A model generated the notes under the pieces. That model was not told where the DNA came from. It worked only from the letters and a program-made list of their open reading frames with translations, and made no database searches. This document shows, one piece after another, positions 12,916-25,815 of a stretch of 64,000 nt of DNA; the first letter of the stretch is position 1, and each line of letters starts with the position of its first letter. The translations under genes were made by a program, and so were the position numbers. Origin of the DNA: Oscillospiraceae bacterium (lineage in GTDB: Bacteria; Bacillota; Clostridia; Oscillospirales; Ruminococcaceae); contig JAAYNJ010000022.1 in the NCBI GenBank assembly GCA_012520915.1, positions 62,001-126,000 of the forward strand, written 5' to 3'.

Positions 12916-14070
12916 ATGAACAAAAAGGATTATTCAAACCGACTTTCCGATCAGGCATACAAAGCGGCGGAAATCATCAAGGAAGTATGTGAAAAGACAG
13001 ACCACAATCTTTTAAAAGAAGTCATATCCATGAAGGAGATTCATGACATCCAGAAGGTGATAATGACCGGGTGCGGAGATAGTTGGATGGCGGGAATCGC
13101 TACAAGGGCCGTATTTGAAGCTGTGACGGGAATTGATGTTGAAGTAATGAGAAATATCGACTTTACGAGACATTTAAACAGCAGATTTCTCGGATATTCC
13201 CCTAATACCCCGCTCGTAATTGTTGTTTCGGCATCAGGTGATAAGGCGAGGCCGACAGAAGCTTTGCTAAGAGCCGGCAAGTATCATGCGAACACCATTG
13301 CATTAACAAAAAGCAAAGATTCGCCGTGCGGAAAAGCGGCAAGACATGTTTTCCCGCTTGTATTGCCTCAGGGCAACTATAATCCGGGTTCAAACAGCTA
13401 CAGCGCGGCCATTACATCGCTGATACTGCTTGCCCTAAGAATAGGCAGAGCAAGAAATGTAATATCGCACAATGAATACGAGGATATGAAAAAGGCGATA
13501 GTGGATTTTGCCGAAGAATTTTCAAACAATTTGGAAGCTCTTGACAATCTCTCTTTTGATATTGCAACAAGATGGAAAGATTTAAGGGCTTTGGACTTCA
13601 TTGGAGATGATTCCGATTATGCGACAGCTCAATTCGGATCGGCGAAAGTTCTTGAAACATACGGAGGATATACAACTTATGACGACTCCGAAGATTGGCT
13701 GCATATTAACTATTTCCTATCCGAACCCGAAACTATAGGCAGGGTCGTAATAGCTAATAAAAACACACCTTCATTCAGCCGAATCAAGGAAACGCTTCAG
13801 TCAATAAAGAGAATCGGTAGCCCGTGCATCGTGATTACGGATGCATCTGCTGATGAGTTCCCGGACGGTTTTGAGGTAATCACAACACCGGAGCCGAGAT
13901 ATTTCTGGTTAAATCCTCTAATGCAACACTATATTTTTGATATGATAGCGGGATATATCGCAGAATTGAAAGGCACCCCGTTTTTCTTTGAGGATAAACC
14001 TGAACTTATGCAGAATACTGCGGCGGCACACGGACCCCGCTTAATTGACAGTAAAATTGAAATTATTTGA
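12916..14070 (+). CDS. SIS domain sugar-isomerase-like protein 1
   Basis: A 384-residue SIS (sugar isomerase) fold protein. The N-terminal SIS half has GCGDSWMAG near residue 53 and the phosphosugar-binding-type VSASGDKARPTEAL; the C-terminal half has GSAKVLETYGG, DDSEDWLHINYF and a late PLMQHYIFDM segment. SIS enzymes isomerise or deaminate phosphosugars, but no substrate can be assigned. It is the first gene of an operon and shares much of its C-terminal half with the second SIS protein 0.4 kb downstream, so the two are paralogues. AGAGG precedes the ATG. Confidence 0.8.
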   Translation: MNKKDYSNRLSDQAYKAAEIIKEVCEKTDHNLLKEVISMKEIHDIQKVIMTGCGDSWMAGIATRAVFEAVTGIDVEVMRNIDFTRHLNSRFLGYSPNTPLVIVVSASGDKARPTEALLRAGKYHANTIALTKSKDSPCGKAARHVFPLVLPQGNYNPGSNSYSAAITSLILLALRIGRARNVISHNEYEDMKKAIVDFAEEFSNNLEALDNLSFDIATRWKDLRALDFIGDDSDYATAQFGSAKVLETYGGYTTYDDSEDWLHINYFLSEPETIGRVVIANKNTPSFSRIKETLQSIKRIGSPCIVITDASADEFPDGFEVITTPEPRYFWLNPLMQHYIFDMIAGYIAELKGTPFFFEDKPELMQNTAAAHGPRLIDSKIEII

Positions 14071-14080
14071 GGTGACGGAT

Positions 14081-14488
14081 ATGGTTTATATTGAAAAATT
14101 TGAGATTGAAACAACGAAAAATGCAGTTATATCAATCACTGAAAATGTAAAAGAAGTGCTTAATAAAAGCGGCGTTAAAAACGGTTTGCTTAGTATAGAA
14201 GTACCCCATTCAACAATTGGAGTTGTTGCGACGACAGCGTTTGTTGAAGATATTAGGATCGATATGATGGAAGAAGTAAAGAGACTGGTTCCATCAAGAA
14301 TTAATTTTAAACATGAGGATACTCCTGACGATGCTGCAGGGCACATAAAGTGTGCACTTTTCGGCACCAGCGTAACATCTATCGTAAAAGACGGCAATTT
14401 GGTTGCGGATGGGAAGCTCGGATATTTCCTTATGGAATATGACGGACCCAGAAAAAGAAACTATTATATATGTGTTTTGGGGGAATGA
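14081..14488 (+). CDS. YjbQ family protein 1 (UPF0047)
   Basis: A 135-residue protein of the YjbQ/UPF0047 family, which has a weak thiamine-phosphate-synthase-like activity in vitro but no settled cell role. Family features are the VPHSTIGV His-containing block near residue 42, the DDAAGHIK block near 87 that replaces the usual GNSDAHIK-type, and the C-terminal YDGPRKRNYYI. GAGGTGA overlaps the SIS1 stop and lies five bases before this ATG. It is paralogous to the second YjbQ gene at 15701. Confidence 0.8.
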   Translation: MVYIEKFEIETTKNAVISITENVKEVLNKSGVKNGLLSIEVPHSTIGVVATTAFVEDIRIDMMEEVKRLVPSRINFKHEDTPDDAAGHIKCALFGTSVTSIVKDGNLVADGKLGYFLMEYDGPRKRNYYICVLGE

Positions 14489-14491
14489 TTG

Positions 14492-15688
14492 ATGGAATAT
14501 TTAAAATATAACGAATACAAAAGCAATTTGCTGAGTCAAACCAGAAATAGTGTGAAAACATTAAATCTGCTCAACAACAGTGTAACTTTTGACTATTTGA
14601 GAGCCGCCGTTCCTGAAAAAAGCATTAAAAAAGCAAGATACTTCATAATAACCGGAAACGGAGACAGCTATTGCTCCGCACTTGCATCAAGACCGGTTTT
14701 TGAAAATACAGACAGGTCCAGCACGACAGGAATGGTTCCCGGAGTTGCAACGGAAACGCCGAGAGCCATTGAGTTTAGCAGATATTACAATACCTATAGA
14801 GGGTGGGATCCGACGAGAGTAGCTCAATACATGTTACTTGCGATATCTGTTGGCGGAAGCACCTCAAGATTGGTCGAAAGCATTTTGAGAATGAATGCCA
14901 TAGGCGGGCAAACGGTGGCCTTTACCCAAAATATTAACAGTGCCTTAGGAAAAGCCGGTGACTATGTTGTTGATATAAATACCCCGGAATGTGATCAACC
15001 TGCACCGTGTGTAACCTCCTACCAGGCTTCGCTTTTTGCGGCGGACATGTTCGGCCTGTATGTAGGTATGGTCAAGGGATTCCTCAAAGAAGAAGAAGCT
15101 AATGAGAGAAGAAACGCCGCTCTTGAGTATGTAAACTCCTTCGGAGGAAGGGTTATTGATGAGATTGAGGAAAAGACTTTTGAATTGAGTTGTGATTGGT
15201 TGGATAAAGGCATTGAAATTATGGATTTCATAGCTGATGGACCCGACTATGCAACCGCCTTTTTCGGTTCCGCCAAGATGGTGGAATCATTTGGAGGATT
15301 GACAACAATCGATGATACCGAAGACTGGAACCACATTAATTTCTTCAACAGACAGCCTGAGAAGTCGGGAACTTTTATAATTGCAAACACATCTTCTCCG
15401 GCATTTGGAAAAAGCCTTGAAACAATTGATACAATAACCGCTCTTGGGAGACCCTTGGTAATAATTACCGACACAAATGAGGACATTTTCCCGAAGAGTG
15501 CTACCGTGTTTTCTCTGCCGAAACCCAAATATTCATGGGCAAATGCACTGATGCAGCATATCCCGATGGACTATGTGGCCGCATATATGGGGATATTTAA
15601 GGGAGAGACGCCGTACAGGGCAAATAGCGAAGTGTTTAATGATATGGGCAGAAGAATTCGTGCCAGCGAACTTGAAATAATTGTTTAA
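14492..15688 (+). CDS. SIS domain sugar-isomerase-like protein 2
   Basis: A 398-residue SIS protein paralogous to the first (for example IADGPDYATAFFGSAKMVES and DDTEDWNHINFF align with the matching blocks). SIS motifs are GNGDSYCSALAS near residue 53 and ISVGGSTSRLVES. It has an insert after the first SIS strand (ATETPRAIEFSRYYN) and lacks any close match to GlmS active-site residues. The ATG follows the YjbQ1 stop by three bases with GGGGGA seven bases upstream; a TTG one codon earlier is possible. Function unknown; probably forms a heteromer or acts on a related phosphosugar. Confidence 0.8.
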   Translation: MEYLKYNEYKSNLLSQTRNSVKTLNLLNNSVTFDYLRAAVPEKSIKKARYFIITGNGDSYCSALASRPVFENTDRSSTTGMVPGVATETPRAIEFSRYYNTYRGWDPTRVAQYMLLAISVGGSTSRLVESILRMNAIGGQTVAFTQNINSALGKAGDYVVDINTPECDQPAPCVTSYQASLFAADMFGLYVGMVKGFLKEEEANERRNAALEYVNSFGGRVIDEIEEKTFELSCDWLDKGIEIMDFIADGPDYATAFFGSAKMVESFGGLTTIDDTEDWNHINFFNRQPEKSGTFIIANTSSPAFGKSLETIDTITALGRPLVIITDTNEDIFPKSATVFSLPKPKYSWANALMQHIPMDYVAAYMGIFKGETPYRANSEVFNDMGRRIRASELEIIV

Positions 15689-15700
15689 GAGGTAATTAAA

Positions 15701-16111
15701 ATGGCATATATGGAAAAAAGAGAGTTTAGATCCAAATTTGAAGAAATGTATGAAATCACGGATGATGTTCAGGAGATAGTCAAAAACAGCGGGGTCAAGG
15801 ACGGGTTTATAATTGTCCACTGTAATCACACAACTGCAGGTATTCTGGTAACTTCCTTTTGGGACAAAAGGGGCCATGTGGATTTTATGATTGAGATGGA
15901 TAAACTTGTACCAACAAGAAATGATTTCCTGCATACCTATGATACCCCGACGGATGCAGCGGGTCACATAAAGTCGATGCTGGTGGGAACATCACAGACC
16001 TTGATTGTTAAAGACGGAAAAGTACTTTTAGGATCTTCACAGGGAATATTTTTTGCGGAATTTGACGGCCCCAGAGACAGACAGTTTTATGTAAAAGTTG
16101 TTTCGGACTGA
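15701..16111 (+). CDS. YjbQ family protein 2 (UPF0047)
   Basis: A 136-residue YjbQ/UPF0047 protein closer to the family norm than its paralogue: CNHTTAGILVTS near residue 46, DAAGHIKSMLVGTS and FAEFDGPRDRQFYVKV at the end. AGAGG precedes the ATG by eight bases. The order SIS-YjbQ-SIS-YjbQ implies a tandem duplication of a two-gene module, followed by divergence. Confidence 0.82.
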   Translation: MAYMEKREFRSKFEEMYEITDDVQEIVKNSGVKDGFIIVHCNHTTAGILVTSFWDKRGHVDFMIEMDKLVPTRNDFLHTYDTPTDAAGHIKSMLVGTSQTLIVKDGKVLLGSSQGIFFAEFDGPRDRQFYVKVVSD

Positions 16112-16150
16112 TAGAAAACCGCATTAATATTGCTGTTTTGGGAGGCTGAG

Positions 16151-17092
16151 ATGAAATATGTTGTGTCGGGAACTTTCATTATTAACAAGATAGAATTCCC
16201 TGATGGCAGCACCATCGAAGATATAATCGGTGGCGGTAGTTTTTATGCCTATACCGGTATAAGGTTTGCTGAAAAGGATAGCCTGATTGTTTCTGCCATA
16301 GGTGAAGATTTTGAAGAATACTACGGAAAATGGTTTAGGGACAATAATATATCAAAGTCAGGGCTGATAAAAAGACTGAATCGATGCACTTATAACGGAC
16401 TTAAGTACCATCCGGATGGGAGATATGATGCCCATTCAGTATATAACGATGAAGTCGGTAAACTGTTCCCCGAGAAAGGTCATATATTGCCTTTGGAAAT
16501 GGTTCCTTTTATCACTAGGGATACCGAGGGAATGTACATGGGTGCCGAAATGACGGAGGAGATTTTTCTTCAGCTGATTGAGCTGAAAAAAATGTTTCCG
16601 AAACTTAAAATCATGTGGGAATACTACCCTGAAAAGAAAGACACAAATGTGAAATATATTGGCTTTTCAAGATTTAATGAAGTTGTGGATATCTTTTCAA
16701 TAAACAGACCCGAGAGCTTCAACCTTTTCGGTACAAAGAGTGATGAGGAATCTATAGAAAGACTTTACGAATCGGGGATGCCTACCTATTATCGGGTGGG
16801 TAAAGAAGGCGCTTACATGTTATCCAATGGCAAATCATATTTCTCCGAATCGATTAGTGTTGTTCCTGAAACCGAGGAGATTGATCCTACCGGATGTGGA
16901 AACAGTTCCACAGGTGCTGTTCTCTGGGCTTGGGTTGAAGGATATGACCCGTTGTTTTGTTGCATATGGGGAAATATGGTTGCTGCGCATACAGTACAGC
17001 AATACGGACCCTACCCTGATTTAAACAAAGAAACTTATGAAAACGCCATGAAAAAGGCAAAAGAAATTTATGACGAATTAAAGCTTAATTAA
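16151..17092 (+). CDS. PfkB-family carbohydrate kinase-like protein with GCGN in place of GAGD
   Basis: A 313-residue protein of the ribokinase/PfkB superfamily: N-terminal GGGSFYAYTGIRFAEKD, and a C-terminal signature DPTGCGNSSTGAVLWAW near residue 250. In active PfkB kinases this signature ends GAGD, where Asp is the catalytic base; here it is Asn. The read is direct (tgt gga aac). Variant PfkB proteins with GGGN are known among MAK32-like members, so this could be an altered or non-kinase member. GGAGG five bases before the ATG sets the start. It closes the SIS/YjbQ part of the operon. Confidence 0.78.
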   Translation: MKYVVSGTFIINKIEFPDGSTIEDIIGGGSFYAYTGIRFAEKDSLIVSAIGEDFEEYYGKWFRDNNISKSGLIKRLNRCTYNGLKYHPDGRYDAHSVYNDEVGKLFPEKGHILPLEMVPFITRDTEGMYMGAEMTEEIFLQLIELKKMFPKLKIMWEYYPEKKDTNVKYIGFSRFNEVVDIFSINRPESFNLFGTKSDEESIERLYESGMPTYYRVGKEGAYMLSNGKSYFSESISVVPETEEIDPTGCGNSSTGAVLWAWVEGYDPLFCCIWGNMVAAHTVQQYGPYPDLNKETYENAMKKAKEIYDELKLN

Positions 17093-17154: not shown

Positions 17155-17997
17155 ATGCTGCATGAGATTTCACCACGCGTGTTTAAACCTGAATACTCCC
17201 AAAGAAAGGTGGAGCATGATGATGTTGTGCTAATCTTCGAGGGAGATGAGGTTTTAATTGTTGAAAAAGAGGGAAGAAATATTTTTCCTACTTATATTGA
17301 CGTTTCCCGCCATATTGAAAATTTTGTCAGGTATCTCTTTTCAATTGATGATATTGCTTTTTTTCTTGGATTTCTCAAGGTTAAAAATCTGCCCGAAGAA
17401 TTCAATTGGTTGCCGGTGAGACTGTTCAGGGAAATGGATCCGATGTGGATGGGGTTTGCAGGTATAACCGGAAATCATCTTTCGAATTGGTATGAAGCAC
17501 ATCGTTTTTGCGGTCGTTGTTCCCGGGTTATGAATCATTCGGAGAAAGAGAGAGCATTGGTTTGTCCCGAATGCGGCATTATAGAATATCCGAAAATTTC
17601 TCCCGCAATCATGGTGGCAGTGACTAATGGTGAAAATATTTTGGTGACAAGGTATAAAGGGGGTAGTTACAAAAGATATTCGCTGGTTGCAGGCTTTGTC
17701 GAGATAGGAGAAACATTGGAAGATGCAGCGCGAAGGGAAGTGTATGAAGAGACCGGAATAAAAATCAAAAACTTGGAATACTTTAAAAGCCAACCCTGGG
17801 CGTTCTCGGGCAGCATACTTTCAGGGTTTTTTGCAGAAAGAGAGGGAGACAACGAGATAGTCATAGATGATGTTGAAATAGGGTATGCAGCCTGGATTCA
17901 TTACAGCGAAATTCCCGGCAATGAACTTTTTGACAAATCGGGATTCAGCCTTTCAAGCGCATTGATTCAAGAGTTCTACAGAAGGCTTACAGAATAA
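17155..17997 (+). CDS. nudC: NAD(+) diphosphatase / Nudix hydrolase NudC-like
   Basis: A 280-residue protein. A zinc ribbon CGRC...CPEC at about residues 119-141 is followed by a Nudix box (GFVEIGETLED...REVYEETGI) that matches the consensus fully, and by SQPWAFS, close to the SQPWPFPxS signature of NAD(H) pyrophosphatases. It would cleave NAD(H) to NMN(H) and AMP, or decap NAD-RNA. It lies 62 bases after the PfkB-like gene and may share its transcript. Confidence 0.85.
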   Translation: MLHEISPRVFKPEYSQRKVEHDDVVLIFEGDEVLIVEKEGRNIFPTYIDVSRHIENFVRYLFSIDDIAFFLGFLKVKNLPEEFNWLPVRLFREMDPMWMGFAGITGNHLSNWYEAHRFCGRCSRVMNHSEKERALVCPECGIIEYPKISPAIMVAVTNGENILVTRYKGGSYKRYSLVAGFVEIGETLEDAARREVYEETGIKIKNLEYFKSQPWAFSGSILSGFFAEREGDNEIVIDDVEIGYAAWIHYSEIPGNELFDKSGFSLSSALIQEFYRRLTE

Positions 17998-18052: not shown

Positions 18053-19447
18053 TTATCTTTTTTTGAAAGCCGTCTGCAGACTTCCTCCCAAGGCATCTTC
18101 TATTGCTTCGTAAATTCCTTCATAGAAAGTGGGGTGCGCATAAATCATGTCTCTCATATCATAAGCTGTGAGGTTGTTTGTCAGAGCAATTGATATTAAT
18201 CCTATCATGTCGGTAGCCCGGTCGCAAACAATCGAACCGCCGAGCAATTTAAGGGAACCCGCTTCGAAAATAAGCTTTACAAAACTCCTTTGAGAAGATT
18301 CGATAATGCTCATGGGATTTGATGACATTACGTACTTTCCCGCAACAAAATCGATATTGTTTTCTTTTGCCCAATCCGCGGTGATGCCGACAGATGCAAT
18401 TTCAGGTGAGGTATATATACAGGAAGGGACATAATTCATAGAGGTTGTACGGGAAGGTGTACCGCCGGAAATTTTATCTACAACGTTAAGCCCTTGTGCT
18501 GTCGCATAGTGTGCAAGCCGGACACCTCCTGACGTTATATCGCCAGCAGCATATATATTCTTTATTGATGTCATCCCGAAATCGTCGGTAATGATTCCGT
18601 TGTTAATTTTTATATCCAGGGATTTATCAAAAAGCTCTCCCGTATTCGGTGTTCTCCCTACTGCAACCAGCACTCGATCACAGGCAATATTTAAAGTTTC
18701 TTTACTTGTTTTAATTGAACACACAAGAGTGTCTTCTTTTTTTATACCTTCAACCGTTGAAGACAGGAATATTTTAATCCCGCTTTTTTTCATTATCAAC
18801 GAGAGATTCTGCGATACCTCTCTATCAATGCCCGGAAGAAGTCTTGATTCGGCTTCAACTATTGTAACATCAACACCGAAACTGTTGAGAATAAATGCAA
18901 ACTCGACCCCAACCACGCCTCCGCCTATTATTACTATGCTTTTAAAAGCTTCAAGCTTTGATGTCAGGTCGTCGCTTGTAATGACGCCCGGCAAATTTAT
19001 TCCGTCAATATTTGGGAGGTATGGTCGGGATCCTGTAGCAATCAGTATGCTCCTGGCTCCGATTTCAGAAAAACAAGGCTCTATAATTGCAATCTTTTCT
19101 TTTGAGAAGACCTTTGCCGAACCTTTTATCAGCTTTAGCTTGTCAATTTTTAGCAGAGAAGATATTCCCGATTGCATATCGGAAATTATTCGATTTTTTC
19201 GGGAATTAATTGACTCAAAATCTACGGATAATCTGCCGGCGGCTATTCCGAAATCGCCGGCTTTTTGCATAGAATTATACAATTTTGCGGAATGAACAAA
19301 TATCTTTGTAGGAATACACCCTTTATTCAGACAAACTCCTCCCAAGTCGCCCTTCTCGATCAAAACCGTATTCATACCGAGCCGAGCGGCTTTTATAGCC
19401 GCAAGATATCCGGCAGGCCCGCCGCCTATAACCGCAAGGTCATACAT
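18053..19447 (-). CDS. lpdA: Dihydrolipoyl dehydrogenase (glycine cleavage E3/L protein)
   Basis: A 464-residue FAD disulfide oxidoreductase with the N-terminal GGGPAG dinucleotide fold, the redox pair CLNKGC (Cys39, Cys44), a second NAD-binding GGGVVGVEF, and a C-terminal HPTFYEGIYEA with the catalytic His-Glu region. It reoxidises the dihydrolipoyl arm of GcvH. The ATG at 19447 is chosen because GAGGAG lies seven bases upstream; it overlaps the gcvPB stop by eight bases, so it is the last gene of the gcv operon. Confidence 0.95.
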   Translation of the reverse strand: MYDLAVIGGGPAGYLAAIKAARLGMNTVLIEKGDLGGVCLNKGCIPTKIFVHSAKLYNSMQKAGDFGIAAGRLSVDFESINSRKNRIISDMQSGISSLLKIDKLKLIKGSAKVFSKEKIAIIEPCFSEIGARSILIATGSRPYLPNIDGINLPGVITSDDLTSKLEAFKSIVIIGGGVVGVEFAFILNSFGVDVTIVEAESRLLPGIDREVSQNLSLIMKKSGIKIFLSSTVEGIKKEDTLVCSIKTSKETLNIACDRVLVAVGRTPNTGELFDKSLDIKINNGIITDDFGMTSIKNIYAAGDITSGGVRLAHYATAQGLNVVDKISGGTPSRTTSMNYVPSCIYTSPEIASVGITADWAKENNIDFVAGKYVMSSNPMSIIESSQRSFVKLIFEAGSLKLLGGSIVCDRATDMIGLISIALTNNLTAYDMRDMIYAHPTFYEGIYEAIEDALGGSLQTAFKKR

Positions 19448-20888
19448 CGACATTCTCCTCGTCATAGAAGTTGAGTACGGGTTTTCTGGCAGCAAGAACT
19501 TCATCAGGTTGGGAAATTTCCGTATTGATTGGTGCGGCTTTCGCCATTTCGGGATCGTTCATAGCAATATCGTAAATTTCCAAAAAAATCTCTGCGACTT
19601 CGTCCAGCAACTCCTTTGCCTCCGTCTCAGCCGGCTCAATCATTAAAGCTTCTTTTACGATTAAGGGAAAGTAAACGGTCGGGGGATGGATATTTCTGTC
19701 TATCAGCATTTTGGCTATGTGGTTTGCGGTTACGCCCTTGTTTTTCGCTTCATCTTTCATCGAGATCACGAACTCATGCATACAGTCGTTGGGGAAGGGT
19801 ATGTTGTATTTTTTGGACAATAAATTCTTAAAGTAATTGGAATTCAGTACCGCAGTTTTCGCGGATAGGGGAATTGATGTTTTTCCCAACGACAGAATAT
19901 AGCAGAGGGCTTTTAAATAAACGAGAAAGTTCCCGTAAAATCCCGATATCCTTCCAATGCTTTTTTCCGGTATGTCTTCGGTTTTATAAAAGTCGCTTGT
20001 GTTAAAAAAGTTCGGATACGGTAAAAACTCGGACAAAACTTCTTTACATGCCAATACACCGCTTCCGGGACCGCCTCCGCCGTGAGGAGTGGAAAAAGTT
20101 TTATGCAGGTTCAAGTGAACACAGTCAAAACCCATATCTCCCGGTCTGACCACTCCCATTATTGCATTTAGGTTAGCGCCGTCAAAATAATTCAAACCGC
20201 CCGACTTATGAATAATGTCGGTTATTTCAAGTACATCTTTTTCGAAAACCCCCAAGGTGTTCGGGTTTGTCAACATAAGTCCGGCTGTATCTTCACCCGC
20301 AACTTCTTTTAACCTGCTGATGTCAACTCTGCCTTCAGAATTGGAAGGAATGTTGATTGTTTTCATTCCGCACATGGATGCTGTTGCAGGGTTTGTGCCA
20401 TGGGCCGAGTCGGGAATAATTATTTTGTCCCTGTTGTCGTTCCGTGATTGATGATACTTTTTTATCATCATTATTCCGGTGAGTTCGCCTTGTGCACCGG
20501 CTGAGGGCTGAAGTGTCAGATTATCCATGCCGGTAATTTCCAAAAGGAGTTTCTTCAACAATTCAAGCACTTCTATGCAGCCGCTCACAGAATTGACAGG
20601 GGCAAGAGGATGTATCTCGGTAAATCCTTCGAGTTTGGCAATATCCTCATTTACTTTGGGATTGTACTTCATGGTACAGGAGCCCAGTGGGAAAAAACCG
20701 CTGTTTACACCGAATGACCTTCTTTCCAGAGAAGTGTAATGTCTGGAAAGCTCATTTTCGGAAACCTCGGGAAGTCGGGGAGGGTGCGACCTTCTTAACT
20801 CATCTCCAAGTTCAAATTCCGGAACATCATTTTTGGGGAGAGATGCACAATGTCTGCCCTCTACGCTCTTTTCAAAAATCAGTTTCAT
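19440..20888 (-). CDS. gcvPB: Glycine dehydrogenase (decarboxylating) subunit 2
   Basis: A 482-residue subunit of the P protein, which decarboxylates glycine and passes the aminomethyl group to lipoyl-GcvH. The pyridoxal phosphate Lys is in LNLHKTFSTPHGGGGPGSG (Lys263). The two-subunit form, as opposed to a single long GcvP, is usual in Firmicutes and other anaerobes. It overlaps gcvPA by four bases. Confidence 0.97.
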   Translation of the reverse strand: MKLIFEKSVEGRHCASLPKNDVPEFELGDELRRSHPPRLPEVSENELSRHYTSLERRSFGVNSGFFPLGSCTMKYNPKVNEDIAKLEGFTEIHPLAPVNSVSGCIEVLELLKKLLLEITGMDNLTLQPSAGAQGELTGIMMIKKYHQSRNDNRDKIIIPDSAHGTNPATASMCGMKTINIPSNSEGRVDISRLKEVAGEDTAGLMLTNPNTLGVFEKDVLEITDIIHKSGGLNYFDGANLNAIMGVVRPGDMGFDCVHLNLHKTFSTPHGGGGPGSGVLACKEVLSEFLPYPNFFNTSDFYKTEDIPEKSIGRISGFYGNFLVYLKALCYILSLGKTSIPLSAKTAVLNSNYFKNLLSKKYNIPFPNDCMHEFVISMKDEAKNKGVTANHIAKMLIDRNIHPPTVYFPLIVKEALMIEPAETEAKELLDEVAEIFLEIYDIAMNDPEMAKAAPINTEISQPDEVLAARKPVLNFYDEENVDV

Positions 20889-22195
20889 TTCACTACCTCA
20901 GCCAATAGAGCTACCATCCTGTCGATTTCCTGCCTTGTGTTAACCTCCGTAGCACACCACAAAATCCTGTTGCCCAATGGAAGTCCGCCGAGAATACCGT
21001 GTTTTTCGAGATGCTCCAAAACGATATTCGTCGGGACGGGGGAATATGTTAAAAATTCGTGAAAAAACTCACCTTTGTATACGGGGCTGAAACCCAAGTC
21101 AGTTAGTTTGTCCTTTAGATAGTGAGCTTTTGATAGACATTGTTTTGCAACTTCAAGCAGTCCGTTGGGGCCCATTGCAGCTAAATATGCCGATGCGGTG
21201 GTTGCACACAGTGCCTGATTGGAACATATATTCGATGTTGCTTTATCCCTTCTGATATGTTGTTCTCTTGCCTGTAAGGTAAGGACAAATGCTCTCTTGC
21301 CGTTTTTGTCCTTAGTCTGACCGACGATTCTTCCGGGAAGATTTCGGAGCAATTCTCTTTTTGAAGCCATAAAACCGAGAAACGGTCCGCCGAAAGAGAG
21401 AGGCATTCCAAGCGGCTGTCCTTCGCCTACAGCGATATCAGCTCCTACCTCGCCCGGGGTTTTAAGAATTGCCATGGCAATGGGATTGACTCCCATAATG
21501 AATTTAGCGCCGGATTTGGATATGATATCGGAAACTCTGACGCAATCTTCTATCAATCCGTAAAAATTAGGTTGTTGAATATACACGGAAGAGACGGTTT
21601 CATCCAACATTTCGACGAGTGAATCCAAATCGCTCAAACCGTCTTTTTCTCCGAAAACCACAAGTTCCGCATCAGCAGCGTCGCAATATGTTTTTATAAC
21701 ACTTATCACGCGCGGGTCAACGGTGCCGGAAATCAGTGCCTTGGTCCTCTTGTTATTTCGACACATCGAAACAGCCTCGGCGGCAGCGCTTGCGCCGTCA
21801 TACACGGAGGCATTTGAAACATCCATACCTGTCAATTCGCATATATTTGTTTGATATTCGAAAATAGACTGTAGAATTCCTTGTGATATTTCCGGCTGAT
21901 ATGGTGTATAGGCAGTTACAAAGCTTTCTTTAGAAACCGAATGTTTGACTATTGAAGGGATAAAATGCCTATATGCGCCTGCTCCTCTGAACACTGTTGC
22001 AAAGACGGTGTTTTTATTGGCGATATCCTTCATTTTAGAAACCAGTTCAAACTCGGAAATGCCTTCGGGTATATCCAGGTTCTCAACAATAAGGTGGTGG
22101 GGAACCGAACTATAAAGTTCATCTATCGATTTCAGATTAAGGGATTTTAACATCTCGGATTTCTGTGAATCCGTTGAAGGCAGATAGTTATACAA
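20885..22195 (-). CDS. gcvPA: Glycine dehydrogenase (decarboxylating) subunit 1
   Basis: The N-terminal-domain subunit of the split P protein, about 436 residues, with the conserved SVPHHL-like start region, GAGAYRHFIP and MGPNGLLEVA segments. It lacks the pyridoxal Lys, which is on GcvPB. The TTG start at 22195 fits AAGGAG seven bases upstream and falls just after the gcvH stop; the longer frame would overlap gcvH. Confidence 0.94.
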   Translation of the reverse strand: MYNYLPSTDSQKSEMLKSLNLKSIDELYSSVPHHLIVENLDIPEGISEFELVSKMKDIANKNTVFATVFRGAGAYRHFIPSIVKHSVSKESFVTAYTPYQPEISQGILQSIFEYQTNICELTGMDVSNASVYDGASAAAEAVSMCRNNKRTKALISGTVDPRVISVIKTYCDAADAELVVFGEKDGLSDLDSLVEMLDETVSSVYIQQPNFYGLIEDCVRVSDIISKSGAKFIMGVNPIAMAILKTPGEVGADIAVGEGQPLGMPLSFGGPFLGFMASKRELLRNLPGRIVGQTKDKNGKRAFVLTLQAREQHIRRDKATSNICSNQALCATTASAYLAAMGPNGLLEVAKQCLSKAHYLKDKLTDLGFSPVYKGEFFHEFLTYSPVPTNIVLEHLEKHGILGGLPLGNRILWCATEVNTRQEIDRMVALLAEVVK

Positions 22196-22196
22196 C

Positions 22197-22583
22197 TCAA
22201 CTCTCCTTTTGACAAAATTCCTCATATTCCGATGAGGTCATAAGAGTGATACTGTCATCAATCGTTGCTCCTTCAATCTCAATAAACCAGGATCCGTAAG
22301 GATCTTCGTTTATTAATTCAGGGGATGTCAGAAGCTCTTCATTTATTGCGGATACCGTACCTGAGACAGGCGAGTAGATTTCTGAAACAGCTTTTACGCT
22401 TTCCACATCTCCGATCTCGTCTCCGGCATCGAAACTATCTCCCACGGAAGGGAGGTTTATAAAAACTATGTCGCCCATGGAATGTTGTGCGAAATCGCTT
22501 ATTCCGACTTTTGCAGTGTTGTTTTCATCGATAATTATCCACTCGTGAGATTTCGAAAATCTTAGATTGTCGGGTAAATTCAT
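22197..22583 (-). CDS. gcvH: Glycine cleavage system H protein
   Basis: A 128-residue lipoyl-carrier protein. The lipoylation site is ESVKAVSEIYSPVSG, with Lys64. The length and the SKSHEWI start are typical. It carries the aminomethyl intermediate between the P, T and L proteins and needs lipoate from the ligase encoded divergently at 23.8 kb. Confidence 0.97.
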   Translation of the reverse strand: MNLPDNLRFSKSHEWIIIDENNTAKVGISDFAQHSMGDIVFINLPSVGDSFDAGDEIGDVESVKAVSEIYSPVSGTVSAINEELLTSPELINEDPYGSWFIEIEGATIDDSITLMTSSEYEEFCQKES

Positions 22584-22600
22584 ATCAGTCTCCTTATTTT

Positions 22601-23692
22601 CTATTTATTTGATTTATAAAACGGCAGTTTAACAACCTCCGCTTCAACTTTCCTTCCCCTAATATCAATTGTGACAACATCATGAATGTTGACGATGTCT
22701 TTTGACACGGAGGCCATGGCATATGCGCCCTTGAGATACGGAAGATATGTACCGGAAGTGATAGTACCGATATTTTCGCCGTTAAGCTCAACTGTATTTC
22801 CTTCTCTTGCTATACCCCGTCCGGTCACTTTCAGACCTATGCGTGAATATCTTACGGGATTGTTGATAATTGATTCTTTTCCGATAAAGAAGTCTTTGTC
22901 GGTTTTAACGGCAAAACCAAGTCCTGCTTCTATAGGAGTAATGTTCTCATTCAACTCATGGCCGTAAAGCGGGAATGCCGCTTCCAATCTGAGTGTGTCT
23001 CTGGCTGCCAGTCCGCATGGTAAAACAGAGATATCATCCGCGTTTAATAAGGAATTATAAAGCTCGGTTACTTCATGGGTTCTGCAAAGCAATTCAAACC
23101 CTCTTTCGCCGGTGTATCCGGTATATGATGCTGTCAGTTTTATTCCGGATATCTCAACATTTTCATTAAAGGAATAGTATTTTTCCGGTAGTTTTCCGTT
23201 TGTCAGAAGTCTGTCCATCAACCTATCCGATTCAGGTCCTTGGACAGCTAACAGAGCTAAACCGTCGGAAAGATCATCAATAATACAATCCCCCTTTAAG
23301 TTATCGGAAATCCATAAAAAATCTTTATCCCGATTAGCTGCGTTCACTATGAGAAGATACCTTCCCTCGGTAATACAATATACAAGCAGATCATCAATAA
23401 TGCCGCCGCTATCATTGCACATCAGAGTGTATCTAACTTTTCCGGGTTTTAATGTAGACATTTCATTTGTCATGATCCTGTTGAGATTTGCTACGGCATC
23501 ATCTCCGGAAATCAGAAATTCACCCATATGTGAGACGTCAAATACTCCACACGTTTCTCTTACGGAGAGATGTTCAGAAATTACTCCTGTAAATTCGACA
23601 GGCATATTGAATCCGGCATATTCAATCATTTTTCCGCCGAGCTCAAGGTGTGTTTCATAAAGAGGAGTTGTTTTATAATTGTTTGAATCCAT
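22601..23692 (-). CDS. gcvT: Glycine cleavage system T protein (aminomethyltransferase)
   Basis: A 363-residue T protein; the N-terminal GVFDVSHMGEFLISG, the inner LPCGLAARDTLRLEA and the C-terminal NGENIGTITSGTY blocks are diagnostic. It transfers the methylene group from aminomethyl-GcvH to tetrahydrofolate and releases ammonia. It is the first gene of the operon gcvT-gcvH-gcvPA-gcvPB-lpd. Confidence 0.97.
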   Translation of the reverse strand: MDSNNYKTTPLYETHLELGGKMIEYAGFNMPVEFTGVISEHLSVRETCGVFDVSHMGEFLISGDDAVANLNRIMTNEMSTLKPGKVRYTLMCNDSGGIIDDLLVYCITEGRYLLIVNAANRDKDFLWISDNLKGDCIIDDLSDGLALLAVQGPESDRLMDRLLTNGKLPEKYYSFNENVEISGIKLTASYTGYTGERGFELLCRTHEVTELYNSLLNADDISVLPCGLAARDTLRLEAAFPLYGHELNENITPIEAGLGFAVKTDKDFFIGKESIINNPVRYSRIGLKVTGRGIAREGNTVELNGENIGTITSGTYLPYLKGAYAMASVSKDIVNIHDVVTIDIRGRKVEAEVVKLPFYKSNK

Positions 23693-23742
23693 TGCTTCAC
23701 CTATAAAGTTGATATAATAAATAAAGACAAACAGTCACAGAA

Positions 23743-23772
23743 ATGATATCATCAGCAAACTTGGTGTGTCAA
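23743..23772 (-). promoter_or_regulatory. Candidate promoter of the gcv operon
   Basis: Minus-strand TTGACA (23767-23772), an 18-base spacer and TATCAT (23743-23748), about 50 bases before gcvT. No glycine riboswitch-like structure lies between it and the start. Confidence 0.6.
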
Positions 23773-23829
23773 CGAACCGGCAAATTCAAAAGAAAGCTAT
23801 AATAAAAGGAAAAACGGCGGTTAATAGGA

Positions 23830-24825
23830 ATGATTTATTTGGAAAGCGATAAATATTTTGCACCTTACAATCTGGCTCTGGAACAGTGGGTTTTTGAAAA
23901 CCTTAATATGGACGATTGTCTGATACTTTGGAGGAACAATAAATCGGTCATAATCGGAAAGAACCAAAACTATCGAAAAGAAGTAGATATAGAATACCTG
24001 AACTCGAAAGAAGTTCCCGTAGTAAGAAGGATGACGGGCGGCGGAGCGGTCTATCATGATTTAGGAAACATTAATTTCACTTTTATCAAAAGGTCAAAAG
24101 AAAAACCGAAGTTTGACTTCGAGTTCTACTCTAAAATCATTGTGTCTCTTTTAGAATCGTTTCGCTTGCCTGTGAGCATGTCCGGGAGAAATGACATATT
24201 GCTGGACGGAAAAAAAGTTTCGGGAAGTGCGCAAATTATTAACCGTGACGGAGTTCTTCACCATGGAACATTAATTTTTGATGTAGATTTGGAAGAAATG
24301 ACTTCTGCTTTGACGCCCGAACAGGGAAAATTAAAGCTCAGGGGCGTGGACTCGATAAGGTCGAGGGTCACTAATATCAGACCGTATCTTAAAAAAGATT
24401 CGGATACTGTGGGTTTTATGAAAAAAATAAGAAAATTCTTTTTCTCCGTTTACGATCTTCGTGAATATAAGCTGAAAACCGAAGATAAATCTGCATTAAA
24501 GCAGATACAAAATGAAAGATACGGAAACAGAGAATGGAATTTTTCGGAGTTTTCTTGTCAGAGAGGCAAAGAAATAAAAAAATATGAACGATTTGAAGGA
24601 GTCGGGGGAATAGAAGTATCTATCCTTCTTGATGAAAACGAAAGAATAACGTCAATAGACTTCAGCGGGGATTACTTCAGCGGAGATATTGATGCGATAA
24701 CCGAATCCCTTTTGGGGGCAAATCTCAAAAAGGAAGAGCTGACTGAAAGGCTAAAAGATATCGAATTGAATAGCAGAATATACAATTTGACCGTCGGACA
24801 GTTAGTGTCATTGTTATTGAAATAA
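23830..24825 (+). CDS. lplA: Lipoate-protein ligase A
   Basis: A 331-residue ligase with the lipoate-binding RRMTGGGAVYHDLGN (residues 66-80), a SGRNDILLDGKKVSGSAQ block holding the Lys, and an accessory C-terminal domain. It activates free lipoate with ATP and attaches it to GcvH. It is divergent from the gcv operon whose H protein it should modify. The ribosome site before the ATG is weak. Confidence 0.95.
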   Translation: MIYLESDKYFAPYNLALEQWVFENLNMDDCLILWRNNKSVIIGKNQNYRKEVDIEYLNSKEVPVVRRMTGGGAVYHDLGNINFTFIKRSKEKPKFDFEFYSKIIVSLLESFRLPVSMSGRNDILLDGKKVSGSAQIINRDGVLHHGTLIFDVDLEEMTSALTPEQGKLKLRGVDSIRSRVTNIRPYLKKDSDTVGFMKKIRKFFFSVYDLREYKLKTEDKSALKQIQNERYGNREWNFSEFSCQRGKEIKKYERFEGVGGIEVSILLDENERITSIDFSGDYFSGDIDAITESLLGANLKKEELTERLKDIELNSRIYNLTVGQLVSLLLK

Positions 24826-24873: not shown

Positions 24874-25815
24874 CTACTGATATCTTTTATCGAGTATATC
24901 TAATGCGTCGAACAGCATGCCTATATAGGCTTCTCTGTCTACATCCATAAGGACTTCAACATTGAGACTTTCTTTTTTAACAAACGGCCTCTGATCCGCA
25001 ACCGTCATTCCTCTGCACAAATCACCTTCGGTTTCAATGTCAATACTGAACATTTCCGACTTGAAAATTGAGGGATCTATTATTTGAAGAATGGTTGTCA
25101 GGTCATAAATCGGCGACCAGTCAATTCCCTTCGACTTCATGTTTCCGCTGAAGAAATCATATAATTCAAATACCAGCTGGGAGGCTCTTCCTCTTCCTTC
25201 GAGCTTTACATACTCTGTGTGAAGTATTCCGCCTGCGTGACATACCTCGAGCCCGCTCATAACTATCGGGACTCCGCTTCTGAAAACAATTTTTGCGCCT
25301 TCCGGATCATGCCACAAATTGAATTCCGATTTCTGCGTTACGTTTCCTGTGTAGATTCCGCCGCCCATAATGCAGATTTTTTCAATTTTTTCTTTAACTT
25401 CGGGATATGTCATAAGAAGAACGCCGATATTTGTAAGCGGTCCGATTGCCACAATCGTCAAAGGTTCATCTCTCGAAATCAATGTCTCATAAAGAAAATC
25501 AAGAGCATGTTTATCTTGGGGTTTGGATGAAGGAGGTTTGAGAACCGGACCGTCCAATCCGGTTTTGCCATGTCCCGCAGCGGGACTCGGATCTCTTCTC
25601 ATCGGAGTTGCGTAGCCTTTATAAACCGGAATATCAAACTCGAGATGATCTATTACAGATAAAATATTATTTGTAACATTATCCAAAGTGTTGTTTCCGG
25701 CGACTGTAGTTATGCCTAAAATATTGAATACCTCAGGATGTGCAACAGCAGCCAATAAAGCGACGACGTCATCGTGACCGGGATCGCAATCGAATATGAT
25801 ATCAACTTTTTTCAT
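24874..25815 (-). CDS. Inosine-uridine preferring nucleoside hydrolase
   Basis: A 313-residue IUNH-fold hydrolase. Residues 9-16 are DCDPGHDD, the calcium and ribose-binding DxDxGxDD motif, and NxxxHDPEGA (NLWHDPEGA) is in the middle. It splits ribonucleosides into base and ribose. The exact nucleoside preference (RihA, RihB or RihC) cannot be assigned. GGGGAGG precedes the ATG. Confidence 0.92.
   Translation of the reverse strand: MKKVDIIFDCDPGHDDVVALLAAVAHPEVFNILGITTVAGNNTLDNVTNNILSVIDHLEFDIPVYKGYATPMRRDPSPAAGHGKTGLDGPVLKPPSSKPQDKHALDFLYETLISRDEPLTIVAIGPLTNIGVLLMTYPEVKEKIEKICIMGGGIYTGNVTQKSEFNLWHDPEGAKIVFRSGVPIVMSGLEVCHAGGILHTEYVKLEGRGRASQLVFELYDFFSGNMKSKGIDWSPIYDLTTILQIIDPSIFKSEMFSIDIETEGDLCRGMTVADQRPFVKKESLNVEVLMDVDREAYIGMLFDALDILDKRYQ

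Follow-up and report, generated by a model that had tools for sequence, protein, structure and literature searches.

Parts of the operon described here have counterparts in several known systems. The deglycases and deaminases FrlB, FraB and NagB-II are proteins of the sugar isomerase (SIS) family that use a Glu/His chemistry, and in frl the SIS gene stands beside a PfkB gene. LacA/LacB is a heteromeric isomerase of the RpiB fold, built from two paralogous subunits encoded by adjacent genes, and Bmp-family importers carry nucleosides. For YjbQ (UPF0047), a widespread protein that was found in 10 of 14 control genomes, we know of no settled role. We analysed a window of 64,000 nucleotides (nt) from Oscillospiraceae bacterium (GCA_012520915.1, contig JAAYNJ010000022.1, positions 62,001 to 126,000 of the forward strand), in which two SIS genes alternate with two yjbQ genes and are followed by a gene for a PfkB-like protein with an altered catalytic motif, here called PfkB* (Table 1). 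This operon may encode a heteromeric enzyme module, an isomerase or deglycase acting on sugar phosphates that derive from ribosides, a reading to which we give about an even chance of being correct.

The five genes SIS1-YjbQ1-SIS2-YjbQ2-PfkB* are intact and co-directional, with gaps of 10, 3, 12 and 39 nt, and all five proteins exceeded the curated cut-offs in Pfam or NCBIfam profile scans, those of YjbQ1, SIS2 and PfkB* being started one codon upstream of the ATGs in Table 1. The initial annotation, which had described five closely spaced genes on one strand with paralogous SIS and YjbQ pairs, was thus correct on both counts; it had also failed to recognise a described system of this form, and none was found in those parts of the literature that our searches reached. 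The searches returned no paper joining YjbQ with a SIS domain, none joining nucleoside hydrolase, SIS domain and PfkB, none for FraB with deglycase and SIS, and none for a heterodimer with a SIS domain. SIS1 resembles the isomerase half of GlmS: the SIS domain was the sole Pfam match in its 384 residues, and the glmS equivalog model scored 74.4 bits against a cut-off of 418. The predicted model of SIS1 matched GlmS isomerase domains, the best being 3tbf_D (Z 40.4, root-mean-square deviation (rmsd) 2.5, 342 residues aligned). The catalytic residues of the GlmS isomerase site are Glu488, His504 and Lys603 (PMC9272926). In our alignment Glu247 and His263 of SIS1 correspond to Glu488 and His504 with a spacing of 16 in both proteins, and equivalents are present in both SIS proteins of the window. 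Unlike GlmS, the window proteins have no glutaminase domain and are two diverged paralogues kept as a pair; a tail lysine at the position of Lys603 was seen in only 8 of 18 SIS rows, in a region that aligns poorly and has a predicted local distance difference test score (pLDDT) below 50 for residues 358–382, and conserved arginines are present (Arg85 in 52 and Arg112 in 55 of 61 SIS rows). FrlB, FraB and NagB-II share the fold (Z 28–34), although as a weaker structural match than GlmS, and no NCBIfam model of these families scored above its cut-off.

A tree of 61 SIS rows, from which three short rows were omitted (two from L099, one from L075), contained five pair types. Ten loci (the window, L009, L010, L011, L012, L013, L081, L108, L111 and L122) each contributed one row to the SIS1 clade and one to the SIS2 clade, neither of which had any other row, and the two clades were sisters with a Shimodaira–Hasegawa-like approximate likelihood ratio test value of 94 in a quick tree method that left many weak forks. 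Four further pair types were similar, some of their members occurring alone, and adjacent SIS pairs numbered 23. Judged by this tree, the SIS proteins are inherited as pairs. The suggestion of the initial annotation that a two-gene module had been duplicated is supported only in part, by the sister position of the two SIS clades; a separate tree of YjbQ gave no firm branching of YjbQ1 and YjbQ2.

Glu247 and His263 were each kept in 58 of the 61 SIS rows. His263 was lost in three rows (L077_6615, Ala; L085_9440, Arg; L121_6711, Arg), and Glu247 together with Lys244 in three others (L077_8061, Glu to Arg; L085_8373 and L121_7982, Glu to Lys). The members of the two sets are direct neighbours, forming three adjacent pairs, and in the local alignment each set retained what the other had lost (ESEDWLHVN or ESEDYLHVN in the Glu-loss set, AAK..E in the His-loss set). 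Losses that complement each other in this way would be expected of an active site to which two different subunits contribute. In GlmS, His504 is presumably contributed to the active site by the partner subunit; if so, the pairs in L077, L085 and L121 would build one complete site from two proteins. The pattern constitutes a clear prediction, at the level of sequence, of a two-protein active site, and by extension a SIS1-SIS2 heterodimer is predicted for the window's own pair. Of the heteromers first proposed for this locus, that of SIS with SIS thus gained support; that of SIS with YjbQ gained none.

YjbQ1 and YjbQ2 both scored above the PF01894 and TIGR00149 cut-offs, and the His triad of the module proteins aligned with 1xbf and 1vmf. 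Compared with other UPF0047 proteins, the module YjbQ proteins form one clade, to which neither of the ordinary YjbQ rows in the tree, L008 and L092, belongs (100/100; the tree omits the L081 row), and lack the NE motif that follows HTTA in ordinary YjbQ. The triad was partly lost in 8 of 31 YjbQ domains, a count that omits one L112 match (G446:C95:3178-3519), and in six of the seven loci with a broken triad an intact second copy was present, L081 being the exception. Retention of broken copies beside intact ones suggests that YjbQ forms hetero-oligomers with a non-catalytic partner, a weaker argument than that for the SIS pairs; some of the broken copies may simply be decaying. A 272-residue fusion of two YjbQ domains with both triads intact lies between two SIS genes at L007 9072–9890. 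Across five genomes, 28 of 34 YjbQ matches had a SIS gene of the window family no more than 3 kb away. At 10 of the 23 adjacent SIS pairs (L012, L015, two in L076, L077, L085, L087, L101, L111 and L121) no YjbQ was found within 3 kb, suggesting that YjbQ is dispensable for SIS pairing. As for the ordinary copies, that of the window's genome adjoins a LacI-family regulator gene and an ABC ATPase gene (L008 3706–8406), and that at L092 3830–10650 is followed on one strand by a radical-SAM gene, a gene that looks rhomboid-like by eye, a normal PfkB kinase gene, a PRA-isomerase-like gene and three PfkB* genes.

PfkB* was confirmed as a member of the PfkB family in both profile and fold, and the view of it as a PfkB-like protein needs revision on one point: its residues set it apart from ordinary kinases. 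GCGN (residues 249–252) replaces GAGD in 67 of 67 aligned rows, the catalytic Asp being Asn throughout, and Glu158, Glu189, Arg216, Gly218, Gly221 and Asp246 are likewise invariant. Since the profile used to select these rows (threshold 180 bits) includes the motif, some selection bias is possible. Of 76 PfkB hits, ten were left out: three were truncated and seven were weak (24–72 bits), six of the latter carrying GAGD or GCGD and one lacking such a motif. Identity to the window PfkB* was only 25–43% in a 12-row set, and the PfkB* proteins formed one clade on a long stem (FastTree, 99). The predicted model (pLDDT 85.2) has the ribokinase fold; its best Foldseek match was the Chlorobium nucleoside kinase 3kd6, and the putative E. 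coli ribokinase 3in1 headed the VIA-align list (Z 24.8, rmsd 3.8, 292 residues aligned) in a tie with several other chains, many ribokinase-family chains having Z 22–25. With nucleoside kinases of this family (3kd6, MJ0406) PfkB* shares the fold, the GG motif and NxxE, and differs from them in GCGN and in the invariant Glu158 and Arg216. For the PfkB* of L103, the sole NCBIfam match was a nucleoside kinase model, far below its cut-off. Invariant Glu158 and Arg216 together with GCGN suggest that PfkB* has been retooled rather than decayed. In L075, L087 and L090, SIS genes adjoin PfkB genes with GAGD or GCGD, which possibly represents the ancestral state.

The gene order is not unique to the window's genome. 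A scan of one genome per species gave six loci with a SIS2 relative, four of which (L009, L010, L011 and L013) had the full order SIS1-YjbQ1-SIS2-YjbQ2; L012 had SIS1-SIS2 but no YjbQ, and in L014 a SIS gene was accompanied by a PfkB-like gene. The genome of L011 (G448) supplied one more full-order locus, L122, the fifth. The PfkB-like gene stands first in L010, L011 and L013, and the L009 contig stops about 400 bases past YjbQ2. Recurrence of the order in five other loci argues for a conserved system, beyond what chance would give. The arrangement is not common across Clostridia, and a system general to this class is ruled out: the SIS family was detected in 1 of 391 class genomes (E-value up to 1e-45) and PfkB* in 1 of 398 phylum genomes (up to 1e-50), in both cases the window's own. 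PfkB* was present in 11 of 296 genomes of the family of G447 (Neobittarella), including G447 and two found earlier. Weaker SIS matches (E-value 7e-34 to 6e-21) in 32 of 60 relatives lay in open frames of 607–680 residues, as in GlmS; a 393-residue frame in L023 (G058:C52) is an exception. In a plasmid collection, SIS gave four weak matches and PfkB none. Rare as it is, the system is much amplified within its carriers, with 9, 9, 14, 4 and 16 SIS genes in the window's genome (G000), G446, G447, G448 and G449, respectively, and 15, 11, 4 and 17 PfkB* genes in the latter four (E-value up to 1e-25). G000 has six YjbQ domains, and its contig C14 bears another large cluster, in which SIS, a YjbQ-YjbQ fusion, SIS and YjbQ are followed by a ROK gene, one gene of opposite orientation and the PfkB* array of Table 1, whose transporter-like gene has a weak RhaT match far below its cut-off. 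G505 carries a SIS-YjbQ-SIS-PfkB* operon.

Four families recurred among the neighbours, namely nucleoside hydrolases, BtpA/SgcQ, ADP-ribosylglycohydrolases and Bmp-type importers, at least one of which was present anywhere in the stretch in 23 of 61 fetched loci, a count made without a chance control. Gene calls favoured the longest open reading frame and chose antisense frames in GC-rich loci, so that the importer genes in L011 and a nucleoside hydrolase gene in L122 were masked; the renewed search of neighbour genes covered these four families. In L011, genes for a Bmp lipoprotein, an ABC ATPase, two permeases, PfkB*, SIS1, YjbQ1, SIS2 and YjbQ2 follow one another on one strand with a widest gap of 129 nt and 25 nt between the permease and the first possible start of PfkB*. 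In L122, genes for an iron-containing alcohol dehydrogenase (Fe-ADH), a nucleoside hydrolase, a Bmp lipoprotein, an ATPase and two permeases are separated from the module by 279 nt, hydrolase, importer and module lying on one strand. Compared with operons for nucleoside use, L122 links importer and hydrolase, L011 has the importer only, and the window copy has neither directly beside it. PfkB* adjoins ADP-ribosylglycohydrolase genes in L105, L123 and L124; in L123 (1138–7615) five such genes in succession directly precede it. BtpA/SgcQ genes lie directly beside PfkB* or SIS in L075 (12090–15214), L102 (4684–7802), L089, L115 and L015.

Nucleoside hydrolases were found within 5 kb of PfkB* or SIS 20 times against 8.0 expected, 19 of the 20 in two genomes (G446 and G449) and many in tandem. 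At the level of whole genomes, a first look at the class sample gave 20 candidates in G000, whereas no other genome in the list had more than 5; the list excludes 312 genomes with no match at 1e-60. Nucleoside hydrolase matches then numbered 21 in G000, 22 in G446, 58 in G447, 10 in G448, 33 in G449, 35 in G497, 42 in G614, 7 in G525, 5 in G655 and 9 in G729, compared with 0–3 in each of 18 genomes without PfkB* (20 in the list, G452 and G465 left out). The large expansions, of 10 to 58 per genome and often in tandem, occur in G000, G446–G449, G497 and G614. At least five nucleoside hydrolases were present in 10 of 13 PfkB* genomes versus 0 of 18 without it (Fisher p 6.4e-6), and in 5 of 8 versus 0 of 18 when the first five genomes were excluded (p 8.5e-4); rank tests on the counts gave p 0.001 for all genomes and 0.05 without the first five, all of these statistics ignoring kinship among the genomes. 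These genomes, one of which has as many as 58 nucleoside hydrolase genes, point to a guild whose members probably use nucleosides. A literature search on nucleoside hydrolases or Bittarella returned no paper on such a guild in the portions it covered, and the available part of PMC8140505 holds nothing on nucleosides. The initial annotation had left the choice between a phosphosugar and a cofactor pathway; this context favours nucleoside or riboside sugars. Synthesis of thiamine or another cofactor was set aside, no thiamine family being present among those neighbours that were scanned with Pfam, which are part of the total.

In the module as we picture it, imported nucleosides or other N-ribosides would supply the sugar, which would be processed as a sugar phosphate. 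SIS1 and SIS2 would act as an obligate heterodimer, built like the GlmS isomerase, with one active site composed of Glu247 (and Lys244) from one subunit and His263 from the other, at which a proton would be shifted between C1 and C2 of the phosphorylated sugar, resulting in aldose-ketose isomerisation or in deglycation or deamination of an amino-sugar phosphate. LacA/LacB would be a parallel, as an isomerase of two paralogous subunits from adjacent genes, though with a fold and genes unlike those of the SIS pair. YjbQ1 and YjbQ2 would be a metal-binding hetero-oligomer performing an auxiliary step that some modules omit. PfkB*, with its nucleoside-kinase/ribokinase fold and altered catalytic site (Glu158, Arg216, Cys250, Asn252), would act on the riboside or ribose that enters the pathway; it may be a kinase that employs a different base, or may only bind its ligand.

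Several observations weigh against this picture. Fifteen of the 61 SIS rows are unpaired, and the window's SIS1 and SIS2 each keep the whole Glu/His set, so that homodimers are possible. The complementary losses fall into one clade per partner and therefore represent a single event, kept in three genomes, rather than three; one of these pairs is in the window's genome (contig C26), and none of them has a YjbQ. Both importer-linked modules come from one genome, and the window operon directly adjoins neither a nucleoside importer nor a nucleoside hydrolase. Nucleoside hydrolases lay within 5 kb of 13 of 55 PfkB* genes but of only 5 of 52 SIS genes, the window's genome showed no enrichment (0 observed, 0.7 expected), and the PfkB* carriers G461, G505 and G575 have no nucleoside hydrolase at all.

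Among other explanations, a deglycase operon resembling frl or fra, in which PfkB* would phosphorylate an Amadori compound of ribose or another sugar, SIS would split the product into sugar phosphate and amine and YjbQ would be accessory, draws on the SIS and PfkB genes that form the core of fructoselysine use, on the matches of the SIS1 model to FrlB 8glr (Z 29.7, rmsd 2.8, 310 aligned) and FraB 9otl (Z 28.5, rmsd 2.6, 288 aligned), and on the SIS genes beside Asp-keeping PfkB genes in L075, L087 and L090. We consider it unlikely: the PfkB* partner, in contrast to that of frl and fra operons, lacks the kinase Asp in every aligned row, FrlB and FraB match SIS1 about 10 Z units below the GlmS domains, the recurrent neighbours include N-ribosyl hydrolases and Bmp importers, and no amino-acid system was prominent among the part of the neighbours that was scanned. 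That the SIS proteins are independent homodimeric isomerases of differing specificity and mere neighbours, with YjbQ and PfkB* as passengers, would account for the 55 of 61 rows that keep both Glu247 and His263 and for the rows outside adjacent pairs, yet the strictly paired occurrence of one SIS1 and one SIS2 in each of ten loci and the complementary losses, seen in the sole pair type that shows losses, make this improbable. A dead PfkB* that senses sugar or holds the SIS pair together, without being an enzyme, would fit the Asp to Asn change throughout and the PfkB* arrays that stand by themselves next to transporter or hydrolase genes (L007, L118), but seems quite doubtful, the invariance of Glu158, Glu189, Arg216, Asp246 and GCGN despite such low identity exceeding what would be expected of a binding protein alone.

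The surroundings of the window operon are as follows. A gene for a NudC-like protein follows PfkB* as a possible operon member (Table 1) and was not noticed next to other modules. A promoter and terminator scan gave no excess above shuffled sequences. The minus strand at 18053–24825 carries a dihydrolipoyl dehydrogenase-like gene and glycine cleavage genes, of which GcvT was identified by Pfam and those for the P and H proteins by eye; an adjacent lipoate-protein ligase gene is on the plus strand. A nucleoside hydrolase gene (24874–25815, minus strand; G000:C16:86925-87800) is oriented opposite to the operon, at a distance of about 8 kb.

Table 1. Location and main features of the operon genes, the gene downstream and the PfkB* array elsewhere in the same genome
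Feature	Position	Strand	Score or context
SIS1, GlmS-isomerase-like SIS protein, 384 residues; K244/E247 and H263	12916..14070	+	PF01380 48.8 bits (gathering score 25)
YjbQ1, UPF0047; His triad intact	14081..14488 (ATG)	+	TIGR00149 91 bits
SIS2, SIS1 paralogue; E/H pair intact	14492..15688 (ATG; alternative start TTG 14489)	+	PF01380 38 bits (gathering score 25)
YjbQ2, UPF0047; His triad intact	15701..16111	+	TIGR00149 115.8 bits
PfkB*, ribokinase fold; DPTGCGN where GAGD motif expected	16151..17092 (ATG)	+	PF00294 40.9 bits (cut-off 25.8)
NudC-like NAD(+) diphosphatase, possible operon member	17155..17997	+	62 nt downstream of PfkB*
Tandem PfkB* array: five PfkB*, transporter-like gene, sixth PfkB*, BtpA/SgcQ gene	L007 13892-19731 and L015 1257-3015		G000 contig C14

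Taken further, the module may belong to an undescribed riboside pathway in a guild with dozens of nucleoside hydrolases, one whose chemistry would differ from hydrolysis plus ribokinase and would employ shared-site SIS heterodimers, YjbQ hetero-oligomers and a PfkB* with a new catalytic site (Glu158/Arg216/GCGN), a possibility that we put forward tentatively and hold to be somewhat less than probable. From the invariant GCGN one would predict that the ribokinase fold is here put to a new use or carries out a new chemistry, and the conserved operon, which ties YjbQ to paired SIS proteins, PfkB* and, in two loci, a nucleoside-type importer, makes the role of YjbQ testable. If the proposal is true, this would be the first defined pathway for YjbQ and a new reaction for PfkB*.

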